From Deltaproteobacteria bacterium (GTDB lineage: Bacteria > Desulfobacterota > Desulfarculia > Desulfarculales > Desulfarculaceae), in contig JAJZPI010000009.1 of NCBI GenBank assembly GCA_021811275.1, positions 1 to 46,564 on the forward strand: a DNA stretch of 46,564 bases. The letters are read 5' to 3'. The stretch's first letter is position 1. Each line of letters opens with the position of its first letter. Shown in pieces: positions 37,876-46,564 of this stretch. The position numbers and the translations under genes are program-made. The notes beneath the pieces are model-generated. The model saw only the letters and a program-made list of their open reading frames with translations. It was not told the DNA's origin and did no database searches.

Positions 37876-40269
37876 CTAACGCGGGGGAGGCCCGCCAGCC
37901 TCCCTGATGGCCCAGAATACCTTTTCCGGATCGGCCGGCAAGGAACGCACCCTGCCCCCGCAGGCGTGGGCTATGGCGTTCAGGATGGCCGGCGTGGCGG
38001 GGATGTTGGGCATCTCGCCAATGCCCTTGGCGCCGTAGGGTCCCAGGTTGTTGGTCATCTCCAGGATCACGGATTTCACGTTGGGAACGTCCATGATGGT
38101 GGGGATCAGGTAGTTGTTTAGTCCGAGGTTCTTGGTGTAGCCCTGCACTATGGCCACTTCTTCCATGAGGGCGTAGCCCAAGCCCATGGCCACGCCGCCC
38201 TCGATCTGGCCCTCCAAGGCCTTGGGGTTGATGGCCTTGCCCACGTCGAAGGCCGCAACGTAGTCGGTCACCGCCACCTCGCCGGTCTCCACGTCCACCT
38301 CCACCTCGGCCATGTGGGTGGAGTAGGTGTAGACGTGGTAGGGGTTGCCCTGGCCGGTCTCCTTGTCCAGGGTGGCCATGGGTGGGGCCCACCAGCCCTG
38401 GCCGATCAGGCGCTTGCCCGTGGCCATGCAGGCCGTGGCCACAGCCTTGAACTCCAGTGAACGCTCGGGGTTTTCGCAGTCGAAGATTTTGCGCTGGCTG
38501 GCCCGCAGGCGGGACACCGGCACCATCAGCATCTCCGAGGCCTTTTCCAGTATGGACTCCTTCACCTGGCGGGCGGCCAAAATTATGGCGTTGCCCATGA
38601 GCGTGGTGGAACGGCTGCCCACGGTGGGCCCGCTTTCGGGCACTTGATCGGTGTCGGGCTTGACCAGGCGCACGTCCTCCAGGCAAACCCCCAGCTCCTC
38701 GGCGCAGATTTGGGGCAGCACCGTGAAGGCCCCCTGACCCATCTCGGTGATGCCGGTGAACAGCAACACCGAGCCATCCTCGTGGACGTGCACGTTGGCC
38801 CCGCAGCCGTCGCCGAAAGTGCCGATGCTGGTGCGATACCAGCCCATGCCCACCCCCACGCCGCGCCGCTTGCTGCTCTTGGGGTTTATGTAGCCGGCCT
38901 GTTTGAAGCGCTTGCTGAACCCGAAGGACTTTTCGCAGGCCTCCAGGGTCTCTCGCAGGCCCACGCTCTGGTCCAGGACCTGCCCCGTGGCCGTGGCCGA
39001 GCCCAGCTTGAAGGCGTTGATGCGCCGTATTTCCAATGGGCTGATGCCCAGCAGGGCGGCCAGCTCGTCCATGGCCTGCTCGTGGGCGATGTGCACCTGG
39101 GGCGCGCCGAAGCCGCGCATGGCCCCGCCGTAGGGGTGGTTGGTGTAGACCAGATAGGCGTCCACCTTGACGTGAGACATCTCGTAGGGCCCGGCCATCA
39201 TGACCATGGCGTGGACATGGGAGCCGCCGGCCGGAGGTAGGCGCGGACCCAAGCTGGCGTAGGCCCCCTGCTCGTCGTAGATCACGCCCTCGAAGGCGGT
39301 AAGCTTGCCGTCCTTACTGGCTCCGATCTTGACCTGCATGATCATGGGGTGGCGCTTGCAGGTCTGCAAGGTCACCTCTTCGCGCTCCAGGCTCATATAT
39401 ACCGGGCGTTTGGTGTGCCAGGCCAGCACCGCCGCCCGGCAGCCCAGATCGATGGGCGAATCCTCCTTGCCGCCGAAGCCGCCGCCCATGTGGATCTGCA
39501 CGCAGCGCACCTTGTTGATGGGCAGGCCCAACACCGGGGCCACGTTGCGCCGGGTGGTGAAGGGGGCCTGCATGGGCCCCTGCACCAGCATCACGCCGTC
39601 GGGCTGGAGCGCGGCCAAGACGACGTCCGGTTCCAGGTAGGCGTGCTCCAGAAAGGGCACCTGGTAGGTTCGTTCCAGGATCACCTCGGCCTCGGCGAAG
39701 CCCTTTTCCACGTCTCCCTTGCGCAGCTTGTCGTGGGAGATCAGGTTGCCCTGTGCGTGAACCTTGGGCGCGCCCTCGGCAAGGCTATCGCGGGGGTCGA
39801 AGACCGCCGGCAGAACCTCGTACTCCACCTCGATGAGCTTCAGGGCCTCCAGCGCTATCTTCTCGGTCTCGGCGGCCACCAGGGCCACGCCGTCGCCCAC
39901 GAAGCGCACCTTGTCAGCGCAGATGACCGGCTGATCGGGGATGATGGCCCCGAAGCCGTTGCGCCCGGGCACATCGGCGGCGGTGAGCACGGCCGCCACC
40001 CCAGGCAGGGACTTGGCCTTGTCGGTCTTGATGGACTTGATAAGGGCATGGGGGTAGGGGCTGCGCAGGATCTTGCCGTGGAGGCAGTCCTCCTTGGGCA
40101 GGTCGGCCTGGTACTTGAGCTTGCCCGTGACCTTGAGCAGGTCGTCGGTGCGCTGAAGCGACTGGCCGACCACGGCGTTGGCGGCCGGAGCCGCGCAGGC
40201 CAGGCGCGACAGGTCTATCTTGGTCTTGGTCAGGACCTGAACTTGGTCCTTGGCGTCGGTCTTGTCCAT
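37876..40269 (-). CDS. Molybdenum-binding subunit of a xanthine-dehydrogenase-type hydroxylase
   Basis: The 797-residue large subunit carries the Mo cofactor. It begins with the a/b hammerhead domain (VVGQSLQRTDDLLKVTGKL), followed by the Mo-binding domains. Residues equivalent to the catalytic and substrate residues of xanthine dehydrogenase are present: Glu269 in GGGFGGKED, Arg385 in AMRGFGAPQ, and the general-base Glu752 in GAKGIGEMP. GITEMGQGAF is a cofactor loop. Aldehyde oxidases usually lack the Glu and Arg pair, so an N-heterocycle such as a purine is more likely than an aldehyde. The CODH-type SCAYR loop is absent. GAGGA lies nine bases before the ATG at 40269. Confidence 0.92.
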   Translation of the reverse strand: MDKTDAKDQVQVLTKTKIDLSRLACAAPAANAVVGQSLQRTDDLLKVTGKLKYQADLPKEDCLHGKILRSPYPHALIKSIKTDKAKSLPGVAAVLTAADVPGRNGFGAIIPDQPVICADKVRFVGDGVALVAAETEKIALEALKLIEVEYEVLPAVFDPRDSLAEGAPKVHAQGNLISHDKLRKGDVEKGFAEAEVILERTYQVPFLEHAYLEPDVVLAALQPDGVMLVQGPMQAPFTTRRNVAPVLGLPINKVRCVQIHMGGGFGGKEDSPIDLGCRAAVLAWHTKRPVYMSLEREEVTLQTCKRHPMIMQVKIGASKDGKLTAFEGVIYDEQGAYASLGPRLPPAGGSHVHAMVMMAGPYEMSHVKVDAYLVYTNHPYGGAMRGFGAPQVHIAHEQAMDELAALLGISPLEIRRINAFKLGSATATGQVLDQSVGLRETLEACEKSFGFSKRFKQAGYINPKSSKRRGVGVGMGWYRTSIGTFGDGCGANVHVHEDGSVLLFTGITEMGQGAFTVLPQICAEELGVCLEDVRLVKPDTDQVPESGPTVGSRSTTLMGNAIILAARQVKESILEKASEMLMVPVSRLRASQRKIFDCENPERSLEFKAVATACMATGKRLIGQGWWAPPMATLDKETGQGNPYHVYTYSTHMAEVEVDVETGEVAVTDYVAAFDVGKAINPKALEGQIEGGVAMGLGYALMEEVAIVQGYTKNLGLNNYLIPTIMDVPNVKSVILEMTNNLGPYGAKGIGEMPNIPATPAILNAIAHACGGRVRSLPADPEKVFWAIREAGGPPPR

Positions 40270-40324
40270 GGGGATCATTCCTCGTTTAATGAGGCCCACG
40301 CCCGCGCGCGGCCCTTGGCCGTCA

Positions 40325-40798
40325 TCACTTCCGGCTCTGGCTGGCGGTCTTGACCGCGGCCACGATCTTGCCGTAGCCCGTGCAGCGGCAGAGCACCCCC
40401 GACAGCGCCTGTCTGATCTCGCCCTCCTGGGGATGGGGGTTGGCGTCCAGCAGCGCCTTGGCGTTCAAGATCATGCCCGGAGTGCAAAAACCGCACTGCG
40501 CCGCGCCCTCTTCCGTGAAGGCCTCCTGCAGGGGATGGAGCGTGCCGTCGGCGGCGGCCAGGCCCTCGATGGTGGTCACGCTGCGGCCGGCGGCCTTGAC
40601 AGCCGGCAACAGGCAGGAGTTCACGGGCTTGCCGTCCAATAGGACCGTGCAGGCCCCGCACTCGCCCTCCCGGCAGCCCACCTTGGTGCCGGTCAGACCC
40701 AGGGTGTCGCGCAGCAGGTCCACTAGCAGGGCGTCGGGGGCCGTCACCACCTTCACCCGCTCGCCGTTGAGTACGAAAGTGATTTCCAGGTTGCTCAT
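40325..40798 (-). CDS. 2x[2Fe-2S] subunit of the molybdenum hydroxylase
   Basis: The 157-residue subunit carries electrons from the Mo site to the FAD subunit. The plant-type [2Fe-2S] cluster uses C42, C47, C50 and C62 (GCREGECGACTVLLDG, then NSCLLPA). The second cluster uses C102, C105, C137 and C139 (QCGFCTPGMI and LCRCTGY). Length and spacing are those of CoxS/XdhC-type small subunits. It lies 23 bases after the FAD-subunit gene and 55 bases before the Mo-subunit gene. Confidence 0.95.
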   Translation of the reverse strand: MSNLEITFVLNGERVKVVTAPDALLVDLLRDTLGLTGTKVGCREGECGACTVLLDGKPVNSCLLPAVKAAGRSVTTIEGLAAADGTLHPLQEAFTEEGAAQCGFCTPGMILNAKALLDANPHPQEGEIRQALSGVLCRCTGYGKIVAAVKTASQSRK

Positions 40799-40821
40799 GA
40801 CCTTCCTCTGCTATTTCAAAA

Positions 40822-41745
40822 CTAGTCCAGGGGACAGCCGGCCTGGGCCAGGGCGTCGGCCAGACCCCGGCGGACAAACACCTTGACCATCTCCCGGCGG
40901 TAATCGCAGGAGCCGCGCAGACAGCTGTCGCGGGGCGAGGATTCCTCGCTGGCCTTTTCCACCGCCGCCGCCACGCTCTCGGCGCTGACCGGCGCGCCCG
41001 CGAGCAGCGCCTCGGCCTGTGCGGCGCGCAAGGGCGTGGGAGCCACCGGCCCCAGGGCGATGGCCGCCCCGGTGAAAACCTTGCGCCCGGGGTCCACCCC
41101 CGCCACCACCGCCGCCACCAGCATGGGCAGGGTCATGGCCTTGCGCTTGGCCAGACGCTGGTAGGAGCCTCCCCTGCCCTGGCCCAGGGCCTTGAAGTGG
41201 ATGCCGGTCATGATCTCCCGGCCGGGGTCGAGCTTGGTGCGGCCCTTGCCCAGGAAAAAACCGTTCAGGGGCTCCTCGCGCTGGCCCTGGGGCGAGGCGA
41301 TGGTCACCCACGCATCCAGGGCCAACAGGGGCAGCGAGGTGTCGGCCGCCGGCTGGCCGGCGATCAGATTGCCGGCCAAGGTGCCTACGTTCCGGATTTG
41401 GGGAGAGCCCACGCTGCCCGCGCCGGCGGCCAGGAGGCCGGCGGCCTCGGCCACCACCGGCGAGGAGGCGGCCTGGGCGTGGGTAACGCCGCCGCCCAGG
41501 GAGACCACCTCGCCCTGTCGGGCGATGCCGTCCATGCCGGGCAGGCGGGAAACGTCCACCAGGGCCTCCACCTCCAGGTGACGCTGGCGCAGGGAAGGCA
41601 CCAGATCGGTGCCGCCGGCGATCACTCTCGCCTTCCCGCCAAAGGAGGCCAGCATGTCCAGGGCCTCGGCCAGGGTGGCGGGCTGGAGGTATTGTCCCGC
41701 CTTGATGTCGTTGGCCCAGTGGAACTCATTAAACTGATACGACAT
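40822..41745 (-). CDS. FAD-binding subunit of the molybdenum hydroxylase
   Basis: The 307-residue medium subunit passes electrons to NAD or another acceptor. The FAD motifs are ARVIAGGTDLVPSLRQ and GSPQIRNVGTLAGNL (IRN-x-GT). The C-terminal CO dehydrogenase flavoprotein-type domain includes SYQRLAKRKAMTLPMLV. The LxxPxxxDxxLxLxAL pattern is in QPAADTSLPLLALDA. GAGG lies six bases before the ATG at 41745, which I prefer to the TTG at 41751. It is the first structural gene after the GntR-type regulator. Confidence 0.93.
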   Translation of the reverse strand: MSYQFNEFHWANDIKAGQYLQPATLAEALDMLASFGGKARVIAGGTDLVPSLRQRHLEVEALVDVSRLPGMDGIARQGEVVSLGGGVTHAQAASSPVVAEAAGLLAAGAGSVGSPQIRNVGTLAGNLIAGQPAADTSLPLLALDAWVTIASPQGQREEPLNGFFLGKGRTKLDPGREIMTGIHFKALGQGRGGSYQRLAKRKAMTLPMLVAAVVAGVDPGRKVFTGAAIALGPVAPTPLRAAQAEALLAGAPVSAESVAAAVEKASEESSPRDSCLRGSCDYRREMVKVFVRRGLADALAQAGCPLD

Positions 41746-41784
41746 GTGCAACCTCGCCGAAAATGGAATGGTTGCGGGGGCCGG

Positions 41785-42495
41785 TCAAATGGCGGCCGGC
41801 GTTCCCCGGCCGGCGTCCCGTCCGCCGGTCCTGGGCACGGGCTTGCGAAGGTCCTGGCTATAGCAGGCGCACAGCCACTCGCGCATCCGCTTGTTGTGCC
41901 GCTGCATGACCTGCCCGGCTCGCTCCGAATCGTCATCTTCGAAGGCCTCCACCAAGTCCAGGTGGTCCTGGTAGAGGTCGCGTAGGATTGGGGAGATGTC
42001 GCAGACCAGGGGGCGGCTGCGGTACTTGATGTTGTCGAGCAGCTCTCGCAGGAGCTTATTGCCGCAGGCATCGTAAATGATGGAATGAAAAACGAAGTCA
42101 GAGCTGGAGTAGCCCGTCAGGTCTCCGGCCTCCACCACCGCCCGCTGCCGGGACAAACAGTCTTTCAGGCGTTCCAAGCAGCTTTCGCGCGCCTGCGTCA
42201 CCGCCAGGCTAGCCGCTAGGGACTCCATGCCCTCGCGCACCTCATAGAGCTCCATCGCCATGCGCGGGGTCATCTCGGCCATGCGGATGCCGCGGTTGGG
42301 TAGGTGGTTGACCAGGCCCTCCCGCTCCAGGTCCTTGAGGGCCTGCCAGACCGGCGTGCGGCTTACGCCAAGTTCCTTGGAGAGTTTTTCGACGTTGATC
42401 CAACGGCCGGCGGAAAAGCGGTGGGAAATGATCATCTCCCGCAGGGCATGATAGGCCTGTTCCTTTAGCGTCATGCGGGTGAGGTGAGTCGGCAC
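41785..42495 (-). CDS. GntR-family transcriptional regulator, FCD (FadR-like) type
   Basis: The 236-residue regulator has an N-terminal winged helix (QAYHALREMIISHRFSAG, then LSKELGVSRTPVWQALKDLEREGLV) and a C-terminal FCD ligand domain. Metal or ligand residues are plausible in DFVFHSIIYDACGN and the DHLDLVEAF and MQRHNKRM helices. It is the first gene of the long operon, 39 bases ahead of the FAD subunit, so it most likely controls it in response to the substrate. The start is GTG at 42495 next to GGGGAGGG; an ATG at 42474 is an alternative. Confidence 0.92.
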   Translation of the reverse strand: MPTHLTRMTLKEQAYHALREMIISHRFSAGRWINVEKLSKELGVSRTPVWQALKDLEREGLVNHLPNRGIRMAEMTPRMAMELYEVREGMESLAASLAVTQARESCLERLKDCLSRQRAVVEAGDLTGYSSSDFVFHSIIYDACGNKLLRELLDNIKYRSRPLVCDISPILRDLYQDHLDLVEAFEDDDSERAGQVMQRHNKRMREWLCACYSQDLRKPVPRTGGRDAGRGTPAAI

Positions 42496-42721: not shown

Positions 42722-43426
42722 TCAGGATTCCAGAAAGGGCAAGAGAGTGAAGTACAACCCCAAGGCACCCACCGCCGCGCCCGCCATTCTGCGGAACCAA
42801 TGCGAACCGGCCTGCCAGCGGCTGTTTTCCAGGATTCGACGTACCAGGGCCATGGAACTCCCAGCCACGGCAATGGGCAGGCAATGGCCAAGGCCGAACA
42901 GAATAATCATGGTCAGACCGGAGGCCAGACGCTCCTGAACGGTTATCAAGGCGAGAATGGGGGCTATAAAACCGAAGGTGCAGGTGCCGGAAAGAACCCC
43001 ATAACCAAATCCCAAGATCAAAGCTCCGGAGCGACCCCGCACCTTCACCCGTTGTATTAGCCCTCCGGATGGCGAAAGCCAGCCCACACCCAGCATGTCC
43101 AACGCCACCCACATCAGCACCGCGCCCACCGCCACAGTCCAGTAGGGTCCAACATCCCCCAGCAGGCGTCCCAACAGTGAGCAGATCACCCCCACCGCCG
43201 TGATGGTCGCGAAGAGCCCGCCGGTGAACAGAAACGCGTACTGCATGGCCCGCCGGGGAGCCACGGCCCCTTTTTGGCCAGCCACGTAACCGACCATGAG
43301 CGGGATGGAGGCCAAATGGCAGGGGCTCAAAAGCACGCTGACCATGCCCCAGATGAAGCAGCCTAGTCCGGCCAAGACCAGGCCGCCCTCCATCCACTGG
43401 TTGACCGTTATCAGGAACTGGTCCAT
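42722..43426 (-). CDS. CcdA-like cytochrome c biogenesis/thiol-electron transporter
   Basis: The 234-residue membrane protein has six hydrophobic helices. The two redox Cys are C36 in LLSPCHLASIPLMVGY and C149 in LSGTCTFGFIAPI, in the positions used by CcdA/DsbD to move electrons across the membrane to periplasmic thioredoxin-like proteins. GGAAGGG lies five bases before the ATG. It follows the thioredoxin-like gene by 40 bases. In this operon its likely job is to keep the thioredoxin-like and perhaps the Sec-containing partner reduced. It is the last gene of the run. Confidence 0.88.
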   Translation of the reverse strand: MDQFLITVNQWMEGGLVLAGLGCFIWGMVSVLLSPCHLASIPLMVGYVAGQKGAVAPRRAMQYAFLFTGGLFATITAVGVICSLLGRLLGDVGPYWTVAVGAVLMWVALDMLGVGWLSPSGGLIQRVKVRGRSGALILGFGYGVLSGTCTFGFIAPILALITVQERLASGLTMIILFGLGHCLPIAVAGSSMALVRRILENSRWQAGSHWFRRMAGAAVGALGLYFTLLPFLES

Positions 43427-43466: not shown

Positions 43467-43844
43467 TCATCTCGCCGCCAGGAGCTTGTTCAGCATCAGC
43501 ACCATGGTCTCCTTGTCCAGGAAGCCAATGTGCCGGTAGGCTTCATTGCCCTCCCGGTCGAAAAATATCTGGGTCGGGATGGCCTTGAGGCGGAAGCGCT
43601 CCGCCGCCTGGCGGTCGAAGCGCATGTCCACGAACACCACCGCCGCCCGGCCCTGGTATTCGCCTTTCAGCTCCTCGAGCAGGGGGGCCATCATCTTGCA
43701 TGGCTTGCAGGAGGCCGCCCCCACGTCCACGAGGGTCACCATTCCCGCCACCGGCAACTGGGCCGAGGCCGGCTCTGCTGCCCAGGCCGGACACATCAAC
43801 CACAGCAGGACAGCCGCCGCCCAAACACAGACGCGCGTTTTCAT
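43467..43844 (-). CDS. Secreted thioredoxin-like protein
   Basis: The 125-residue protein has a signal peptide (MKTRVCVW, hydrophobic AAAVLLWLMC, cleavage after PAWA) and a thioredoxin fold. The active site is C46-KP-C49 in VDVGAASCKPCKMMAPLLEEL, and the cis-Pro is in KAIPTQIFFD. It should act in the periplasm. Its start overlaps the stop of the upstream Sec-protein gene (ATGA), so the two are made together. CcdA downstream is its probable electron donor. Confidence 0.9.
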   Translation of the reverse strand: MKTRVCVWAAAVLLWLMCPAWAAEPASAQLPVAGMVTLVDVGAASCKPCKMMAPLLEELKGEYQGRAAVVFVDMRFDRQAAERFRLKAIPTQIFFDREGNEAYRHIGFLDKETMVLMLNKLLAAR

Positions 43845-44302
43845 CCAACCTCCCCGCCCCGCTCCCCGGCCGCGAGCATGTCTTCAAGTATCTCGGCCGC
43901 GCTTTGCACCAACACCGGACAGATCTTAACGAAGAGGCCGCTGTCGCGGGCCTGCTGGCGGCCATCGAGAGTAGTCATGTCCACTCCCATGAGGTCACAG
44001 CAGCTCAGAGAGCCGTGCCGGCCCATGAAGCGCTCGGCGAACAGGGCCCCCTGGTCGTAGCAGCGGAAGCGCGGCCCGCGGTCGTCGGCCTGGACCGGGC
44101 CCGCAGCCAGACCCAGCACCATAACCGCTCCGCTCACCGCCCCGCAGGTGAGCCCCAGGCCCAGACCCATGCCCAGCCCCCGCCCCAGGCGAACCGCAGT
44201 CTCTTTGTCCAGCCCGAACTGCCTGCCGAAACCGGCCAGCACGGCCTGCGCTCAGTTGTGGCCCGGCCCGAAAAGGACCGCAACCTCTTCCACGGGATTC
44301 AT
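43841..44302 (-). CDS. C-GCAxxG-C-C family protein with in-frame UGA (probable selenoprotein)
   Basis: Read from the ATG at 44302, the protein has 153 residues with a UGA at codon 17 (44252-44254). The text around it is PGHN-U-AQAVLAGFG, which matches the family's conserved (Y/F)NCAQAV; UGA sits exactly at the first signature Cys. Downstream family features continue in frame: GLGMGLGLGLTCGAVSGA (C53), GSLSCCDLMGVD (C101, C102) and KICPVLVQSAAEILE (C128). A SECIS-like hairpin follows 12 bases after the UGA. Family function is unknown; redox or metal binding is likely. ACR3 ends 14 bases upstream, and the stop overlaps the thioredoxin-like start. If UGA were a stop, only a GTG at 44242 could start the rest, without the key residue. 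Confidence 0.85.
44223..44239 (-). promoter_or_regulatory. SECIS-like hairpin after the UGA codon
   Basis: On the minus strand CTG-g-CCG pairs with CGG-CAG around a GTTT loop: six base pairs with one bulged G, beginning 13 bases after the UGA. Bacterial SECIS elements have a short upper stem with a bulge and a G-rich loop at about this distance. The fit was judged by eye. Confidence 0.55.
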
Positions 44303-44316
44303 TTCTGGCCTCCGGT

Positions 44317-45408
44317 TCACGGCTTGCAAGTCAGGTGGCAGATGCCGGTGGGGGTCGGCACGGCGTGGGGAAAGTATTTCCGCCTGAAGCGCAGGGCCAC
44401 GCCCACCAGGCTGATGAGCACCGGCACCTCCACCAGCGGCCCGATCACCGCCGCGAATGCCTGGCCGGAGTCCAACCCGAAGACCGCCACCGCCACCGCG
44501 ATGGCCAGCTCGAAGTTGTTGCTGGCGGCGGTGAAGGAGAGCGTGGCCGCCTGCTCGTAAGTAGCCTGGGCCTTGATGGACAGGAAGAACGAGACCACGA
44601 ACATCACCACGAAGTAGATGCACAGCGGCAGAGCGATGCGAAGCACGTCCAGGGGCAGCTCCACGATGAATTCGCCCTTCAGGGAGAACATCACCAGGAT
44701 GGTGAAGAGCAGGGCCACCAGGGTGACGGGGCTGATCAGGGGCAGAAAGCGGGTCTCATACCACTGGCGCCCCTTGGTCTTGAGCCCGACCAAGCGGCTG
44801 AGCATCCCCCCGATGAACGGAATGCCCAGGTAGATGAAGACGCTCTCGGCGATCTGGCCGATGCTGATGTCCACCACCGCGCCCTTCATGCCCAGCCACT
44901 GGGGCAGCAGGGTGATGAAGAACCAAGCGTAGACCGAGAAGAAAAGCACCTGGAATATGCTGTTGAAGGCCACCAGCCCGGCGCAGTACTCGCGGTCGCC
45001 GCTGGCTAGGTCGTTCCATACGATGACCATGGCGATGCAGCGGGCCAGGCCGATCAGGATCAGGCCCACCATGTACTCATGCTGGCCGGAAAGAAAGGTT
45101 ATGGCCAAGGCGAACATCAGGATGGGCCCGATGACCCAGTTCTGCACCAGGGAAAGCGCCAGCACCCGGTAGTTGCGGAAGACCTGGCCCAGTTCCTCGT
45201 AACGCACCTTGGCCAGGGGCGGGTACATCATCAGGATGAGCCCGACGGCGATGGGTATGCTGGTGGTGCCCACGGAGAAGCGGTTGATGATCTCCCGCAC
45301 ACCCGGATAGGCCCACCCCGCGCCCACGCCGGCGAACATGGCCAGGAATATCCACAGGGTCAGGAAGCGGTCCAGGAAAGACAAGCGCTTCACCCCAAGT
45401 TGGCCCAT
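44317..45408 (-). CDS. ACR3-type arsenite efflux transporter
   Basis: ACR3 exports arsenite by proton-driven transport through the inner membrane. The 363-residue protein has about ten membrane helices. The conserved arsenite-binding Cys is in [18 protein letters not shown], and the segment [25 protein letters not shown] is typical. The opening [18 protein letters not shown] is the normal N-terminus. The C-terminus has an extra GICHLTCKP with two Cys. Neighbours are a CxxC protein and a permease upstream and the Sec-protein downstream, all on one strand. Confidence 0.93.
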
Positions 45409-45448: not shown

Positions 45449-45682
45449 TCATTTCAACAGCCAGGCCAGCACGTCCTTCTTGTCCGGAACCTTGCCCACG
45501 CAACGCACCTTGCCATCGACGACCACCGCCGGGGTGCCCATGACGCCGCACTGTGCGATCTCCAGCATGCTGGTGACCTTTTCCACCTTGGCGGAAAGGC
45601 CTGATTCGGCCAAGGCCTGTTCCACCACCTCCAAAGTTTTTGCACAGCGGGGGCAGCCTGGGCCTAACACTTTTATTTCCAT
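45449..45682 (-). CDS. Small thioredoxin-like redox protein (CPRC)
   Basis: The 77-residue protein is a minimal glutaredoxin/thioredoxin fold of the redox-active disulfide protein 2 type. The active site is C10-PR-C13 in [22 protein letters not shown]; the second part is [21 protein letters not shown] with the cis-Pro. It is cytoplasmic. Such proteins are very often encoded next to the DUF318-type permease, as here (14 bases). It is 40 bases ahead of ACR3. A role in passing reductant or binding metal for the permease is inferred from context. Confidence 0.92.
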
Positions 45683-45696
45683 GACGGACTCCACGC

Positions 45697-46564
45697 CTAA
45701 AGAACAAGGTTGAACAGATACCCCACCAGGAGGATGCCCGCGGCCACCACCCCGGCGAAGACCGCTATGAGCTGGCGCTTGAGCACCTTGCGCAGGATGA
45801 CCATCTCCGGCAGGGACAGGGCGATCACCGCCATCATGAAGGCCAGGGCCGTGCCCAGGGCGGCGCCCTTTTCCATCAAGGCGATGATGATCGGCACGAT
45901 GGCCGCGGCATTGGCATACATGGGCACGCCAACCAGCACCGCCACCGGCACCGACCACCAGGCCTGGCGGCCCATAACCGAGGCCAGGAAGCCCTCGGGC
46001 GCGTAGCCGTGGATGGCCGCGCCCACCGCTATGCCCGCCAACACCCAGGGCCAGACCTTGCCCACGATCTCGCGCACGGCGTTAAGGCCGTAACGCACCC
46101 TGTCGGCCCAGGTGAGTTTCTCGCTAACAATCGGCGCGCCGTTGAGCCTGATCTCCCGCACCCAGTCCTCGACGTAGCGCTCCAGCTGGAGCCGACCGAT
46201 GACCCAGCCGGCGACCATGGCCACGCTCAGGCCGGTTACCAAATAGAGCAGCGCCACCTTCCACCCGAATTCGCTCCACAAAAGCACCAGGGCTACTTCG
46301 TTGACCATGGGCGCGCTGATCAGGAAGGAGAAGGTGACCCCCAGGGGAACGCCGGCGGTGACAAAGCCGATGAACAGAGGCACCGCCGAGCAGGAGCAGA
46401 AGGGGGTGAAGATGCCCAGAAGCGCGCCCAAGACATTGCCGAGTGCCTCGCGCCCGTCGGCCAATAGGTCACGAGTGCGCTCGGGGGTGAAAAAGGAGCG
46501 GATCACCCCCACCCCGAAGACCACCAGCGCCAGGAGTATGAGCACTTTGGGGGCATCGTAGAGA
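45697..46564 (-). CDS. Permease of the DUF318 (ArsP-like) family, 5' end cut by window edge
   Basis: The open frame continues to the window end, so the true start lies outside; a GTG at 46545 is inside the gene. The visible part has about eight membrane helices. Conserved text includes LLALVVFGVGVIRSFF, the cysteine motif GIFTPFCSCSAVPLFIGF, APMVNEVALVLLW and VGVPMYANAAAIVPII. The family includes ArsP, which exports trivalent organoarsenicals, and other metal- or thiol-linked permeases. The FCSC motif may bind metal. It is the first gene seen of the ACR3/selenoprotein/CcdA run. Confidence 0.9.
   Translation of the reverse strand, partial: LYDAPKVLILLALVVFGVGVIRSFFTPERTRDLLADGREALGNVLGALLGIFTPFCSCSAVPLFIGFVTAGVPLGVTFSFLISAPMVNEVALVLLWSEFGWKVALLYLVTGLSVAMVAGWVIGRLQLERYVEDWVREIRLNGAPIVSEKLTWADRVRYGLNAVREIVGKVWPWVLAGIAVGAAIHGYAPEGFLASVMGRQAWWSVPVAVLVGVPMYANAAAIVPIIIALMEKGAALGTALAFMMAVIALSLPEMVILRKVLKRQLIAVFAGVVAAGILLVGYLFNLVL

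Follow-up and report, generated by a model that had tools for sequence, protein, structure and literature searches.

A probable C-GCAxxG-C-C family selenoprotein encoded within an arsenic/thiol operon of a deltaproteobacterium

The stretch of DNA analysed here (the window) comprises the 46,564 nucleotides of contig JAJZPI010000009.1 from a deltaproteobacterium of the Desulfarculaceae. Judged from its sequence and from its relatives, a gene in this window very probably codes for a C-GCAxxG-C-C family selenoprotein. This high confidence covers the selenoprotein part of the reading only, which is composed of the reading frame, the exchange of Sec and Cys among homologues, the hairpin resembling a SECIS, and the genes of Sec synthesis and insertion in the genome. 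The chemistry of the product and its role towards arsenic are a committed guess, to which we give clearly less than an even chance. The gene is a clean case in which annotation truncates the protein, yet the Sec codon is well supported. The gene and the two elements on which its reading depends are as follows:

43841..44302, minus strand: (seleno)protein gene of the C-GCAxxG-C-C family, with a product of 153 amino acids including Sec17, the frame being read with TGA as U (PF09719, E 1.2e-25; TIGR01909, E 3.3e-21)
44252..44254, minus strand: in-frame UGA at codon 17, at the position of the first invariant Cys of the family (only TGC, TGT or TGA in this column in 120 placed homologues)
44210..44248, minus strand: SECIS-like bulged hairpin with the loop GUUU at 44229-44232, 19 nt past the UGA, consistent with the constraints on a bacterial SECIS (bSECIS), -21.4 kcal/mol

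The frame of 154 codons begins with an ATG at 44302-44300 on the minus strand and is preceded by a GGAGG ribosome-binding site at 44309-44313. The TGA at codon 17, in the motif HN-U-AQAV, is the sole in-frame TGA before the terminal stop, a TGA at 43843-43841 that overlaps the ATG of the downstream thioredoxin-like gene as ATGA. With Sec at codon 17, the translated product reaches 90.4 bits against the PF09719 profile (cut-off 27) and 75.6 bits against TIGR01909 (cut-off 47.4). The original prediction, made from the nucleotide sequence, had placed this UGA on the first Cys of the family and had followed the same frame through all of the later Cys motifs to the ATGA overlap. Both observations hold in the minus-strand reading, and the UGA falls on one of four invariant Cys positions. 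It was also expected that such a gene would be annotated as a truncated ORF, and gene calling with table 11 does start at a GTG at 44242 with the loss of the first 20 codons.

Homologues were gathered from related genomes and by scanning prokaryotes with each species represented by one genome. Codon 17 could be placed in 120 loci, and the column consists of 62 TGC, 36 TGT, and 22 TGA codons, with no instance of TAA, TAG, or any other codon. The TGA copies, 19 of which are distinct after the removal of duplicates, are found in Desulfarculus-like bacteria, in further deltaproteobacterial lineages, in Chloroflexi, and elsewhere. In an alignment of 70 homologues in which Sec was read as Cys, the invariant columns are Cys/Sec17, G46, C53, G54, C101, and C128. 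Placing the Sec/Cys label on a tree, which was built from a short alignment and has many unresolved forks, requires nine changes, at least three of which are forced by well-supported branches. For example, one UGA copy (L026) is nested beside two Cys copies (L027 and L028) from its own genus. The three closest orthologues of the focal gene, found in congeners, have Cys (TGC), and the UGA of this orthologue is present in a single draft genome. The occurrence of Sec and Cys orthologues inside one genus and in the same operon offers a natural comparison for learning what Sec contributes. The same genome holds a further C-GCAxxG-C-C paralogue with a UGA, in the motif LHUGQS (L052, G000:C1, 4322-4789), and this paralogue has UGA orthologues in two congeners (L053 and L054). 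A search of plasmids for homologues returned distant ones only.

The original prediction also described a bulged hairpin 12 bases past the UGA and proposed that this region be examined with a SECIS predictor. The hairpin was recovered, with an upper stem that starts about 12 nt after the UGA, and its loop (GUUU), spacing (19 nt), and energy (-21.4 kcal/mol) agree with published bSECIS rules (PMC13188914). These rules are loose, as 72% of the Cys copies also form a comparable hairpin with an energy of -7.5 or below, and the focal copy alone is marginal against synonymous shuffles (p ~0.06). Because of this looseness, and to control for protein homology, UGA and Cys copies were compared codon for codon. 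The loop codon is RGU in 11 of 19 UGA copies vs 3 of 89 Cys copies, and at least five of the six apical pairs are formed in 10 of 19 and 10 of 89 copies, respectively; related copies are counted separately in these statistics so that any p-values are optimistic. Under synonymous-codon shuffling, the UGA copies have 4.63 apical stem pairs observed against 3.59 expected and a mean energy z of -1.65, and the Cys copies have 2.81 observed against 2.80 expected and a mean energy z of -0.46. Taken as a group, the UGA copies give a strong signal and show selection for the hairpin that is absent in the Cys copies. Additionally, in the Cys orthologue of one congener (L024, 1492-1920), a short GGCC/GGCC hairpin still has the loop codon of the UGA type (AGU UUU) and is possibly a relic SECIS left after a change from Sec to Cys.

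An error or a true stop at codon 17, as revealed by close relatives, had been named at the outset as an outcome that would overturn the selenoprotein reading, and alignment with Cys homologues had been proposed as a check. In that alignment the UGA swaps solely with Cys codons, as would hardly be expected of a random error or of a true stop. If the UGA were a true stop, translation could restart at GTG 44242 in a frame that does exist and that is the table-11 gene call, giving a 133-aa protein that lacks the first Cys. Such a restart is very improbable, as all 120 placed homologues have Cys or UGA at position 17 and the 16 codons ahead of the UGA encode a recognisable family N-terminus with its own ribosome-binding site. 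Alternatively, the gene might be a decaying pseudogene with a nonsense mutation at codon 17, or a Cys codon might have been misassembled as UGA, as could be suspected from the occurrence of the UGA in only one genome for this orthologue where the congeners have TGC. This explanation is likewise very improbable, as the remaining frame is intact with dN less than dS against the congeners (a rough estimate), the focal loop is GGU UUC, as is typical of UGA copies, vs GCC UUC in two Cys congeners, a chance stop would be unlikely to fall exactly on an invariant Cys (4 of 153 codons), and the same Sec/Cys swap is found in other lineages. The pseudogene, assembly-error, and restart readings were rejected on the basis of column-17 conservation, the intact frame, and the loop codons.

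Decoding of the UGA as Sec would also require the Sec machinery, and absence of selA, selB, and selC from the genome had been named as a further outcome that would count against the selenoprotein reading. The check did not overturn the reading. The genome has selA (E 1e-182), selB (380 bits), and selD (366 bits), and the Sec codon of selD itself is also a UGA (codon 36 in the piece that was read). Three formate dehydrogenases (L228, L229, and L231) have a UGA in the canonical UH motif; standard gene calling would truncate these and selD (L018) too. The part of the predicted set that was not recovered is selC, as no tRNA-Sec scored above the Rfam cut-off in this draft assembly. A tRNA-Sec was found in two congeners (G002 and G003), and in G002 it lies 34 nt after a gene of 486 aa. 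The homologue of that gene in the focal genome (L115, G000:C67:8-529) is 66% identical and is cut at position 8 of its contig, after residue 171 of 486. The tRNA-Sec is probably missing from the assembly because this neighbouring gene runs off the contig end, and it most likely lies in an assembly gap.

The family itself is known. Table 1 of PMC9312934 includes PF09719 among predicted selenoprotein families, a catalogue of prokaryotic selenoproteins lists C-GCAxxG-C-C 'form 1' and 'form 2' (table of PMC13188914), and the NCBIfam name of TIGR01909 includes '(seleno)protein'. The focal protein belongs to this family by profile score, and Sec-containing members have already been catalogued; it differs in that it is encoded within an ACR3/ArsP_1 operon. 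The HUGP/GUXX-star fusion selenoproteins are also similar, as the NF045501 profile matches residues 7-139 of the focal protein, but with only 43 bits (cut-off 325), and the focal protein has a single domain. The HUGP motif of NF045501 is reminiscent of another UGA copy in our set (L061, 2011-2478), which has the motif HUGPAV with its UGA at the same column. In L061, a stretch resembling glutaredoxin (CPYC) follows in frame a short distance downstream, a layout similar to that of these fusion selenoproteins. In the literature examined, neither a Sec version in an ACR3 operon nor the link to the split-Soret fold discussed below was found described.

The original prediction had assigned the gene to an arsenic/thiol operon, and the profile matches of the neighbouring genes bear this out. 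In order of transcription, the operon encodes an ArsP_1 permease, a Thioredoxin_3 protein, ACR3, the C-GCAxxG-C-C protein, a thioredoxin, and a CcdA/DsbD-like protein. The neighbours are:

45697..46563, minus strand: ArsP_1 family permease, cut by the contig end (PF03773, E 4.6e-72)
45449..45682, minus strand: small thioredoxin-like protein with CPRC, Thioredoxin_3 (PF13192, E 3.7e-27)
44317..45408, minus strand: ACR3 family arsenite efflux transporter (TIGR00832, 454.8 bits, cut-off 282.8)
43467..43844, minus strand: thioredoxin-like protein with CKPC and an N-terminal hydrophobic signal-like stretch, in ATGA overlap with the selenoprotein gene (PF00085, E 9e-12)
42722..43426, minus strand: CcdA/DsbD transmembrane-like protein (PF02683, E 2.6e-11)

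A thioredoxin adjoins the CcdA-like gene in 28 of its 30 best relatives (the copy in the window included), and ACR3 or ArsP_1 is found within 1.5 kb in many of these 30. Because only 4 of the 30, all of this genus, have a C-GCAxxG-C-C gene there, the module is an arsenic/thiol operon to which the C-GCAxxG-C-C protein is an occasional addition. The operon with its ACR3, ArsP_1, two thioredoxins, and CcdA-like protein provides a lead to the function of the family. The SAO (Sec-assisted organometallic) system is comparable in that an ArsP_1 permease resembling SaoE is encoded near a selenoprotein, but the permease, which is cut by the contig end, scores 135.3 bits against the SaoE model (cut-off 325), and no other Sao proteins were identified here. 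A comparison with the Tso operon gave 38.3 bits for the TsoB equivalog, below the cut-off of 805.

The operon context suggests a role of the product towards arsenic or thiols. A function unrelated to arsenic, such as generic redox or iron-sulfur work by a protein whose place in this operon is coincidental, is a serious contender, though we would give it well under an even chance. It would fit with the wide variation of neighbourhoods across the C-GCAxxG-C-C family, and no ACR3 or ArsP_1 homologues were found in the searched flanks of the other UGA copies examined. Against it stand the congeners, in which the Cys version is encoded in the same ArsP/ACR3-TrxL-CcdA operon at a different place (after CcdA instead of ACR3), and a Phycisphaerae contig on which genes for a thioredoxin (TrxL), CcdA, ACR3, and a Cys-type C-GCAxxG-C-C protein lie in line. 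The ATGA overlap of the focal gene with the next gene also argues for a connection with the operon.

The AlphaFold2 model of the product is a compact, all-alpha structure with a pLDDT of 95. In this model, the Cys/Sec residues at positions 17, 101, and 128 are each the first residue of a helix (17-29, 101-105, and 128-144) and C53 sits just before helix 54-66. Structural comparison with VIA-align gave a single strong match, the split-Soret cytochrome c of Desulfovibrio desulfuricans (1h21), whose structure title refers to a novel iron centre, with a Z of 13.6 and an rmsd of 3.0 over 135 residues; helical folds can inflate Z, and the gap to the next row (Z 4.0) is large. The predicted likeness is to the fold of the non-haem domain, and the proteins differ in that the focal protein has only 15% identity to 1h21 and no CXXCH haem motif in its 153 residues. 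A profile search points weakly to the same cytochrome (E 0.028), with the GCA motif and the last invariant Cys aligned. Foldseek alone gave no significant match and did not report split-Soret cytochrome c, and a single-protein sequence search against solved structures returned nothing useful. The split-Soret iron-centre fold, with four invariant Cys/Sec at the helix starts, is a structural lead for this family.

From the model we infer a four-thiol redox or metal site of which Sec would be one member. Iron-sulfur chemistry, arsenic binding, and selenenyl-sulfide redox chemistry are alternatives that these data do not separate. It is proposed that SelA and SelD would make Sec-tRNA(Sec), which SelB, bound to the hairpin at 44210-44248, would deliver to UGA17. 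Sec17, C53, C101, and C128 would then probably be gathered into one thiol/selenolate centre that could hold an iron-sulfur cluster or a metal(loid), or could work as a selenenyl-sulfide redox pair. Probable partners of the product in electron exchange would be the thioredoxin and CcdA-like proteins of the adjoining genes, and the product could support arsenic or thiol detoxification jointly with ACR3 and the ArsP_1 permease. A more specific proposal, which we consider unlikely as it stands, is that Sec17 would serve as the selenolate ligand of a four-thiolate centre, either iron-sulfur or arsenic-binding, within a split-Soret-like fold, and that this lineage put the selenium-based centre into its arsenite-export operon, where it would act on arsenic or organoarsenicals together with thioredoxin and proteins like CcdA.

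Elsewhere in the window, positions 37876-42495 contain a molybdenum hydroxylase-like cluster (large, 2Fe-2S, and FAD subunits) together with a GntR-type regulator, as judged by eye from the translations.
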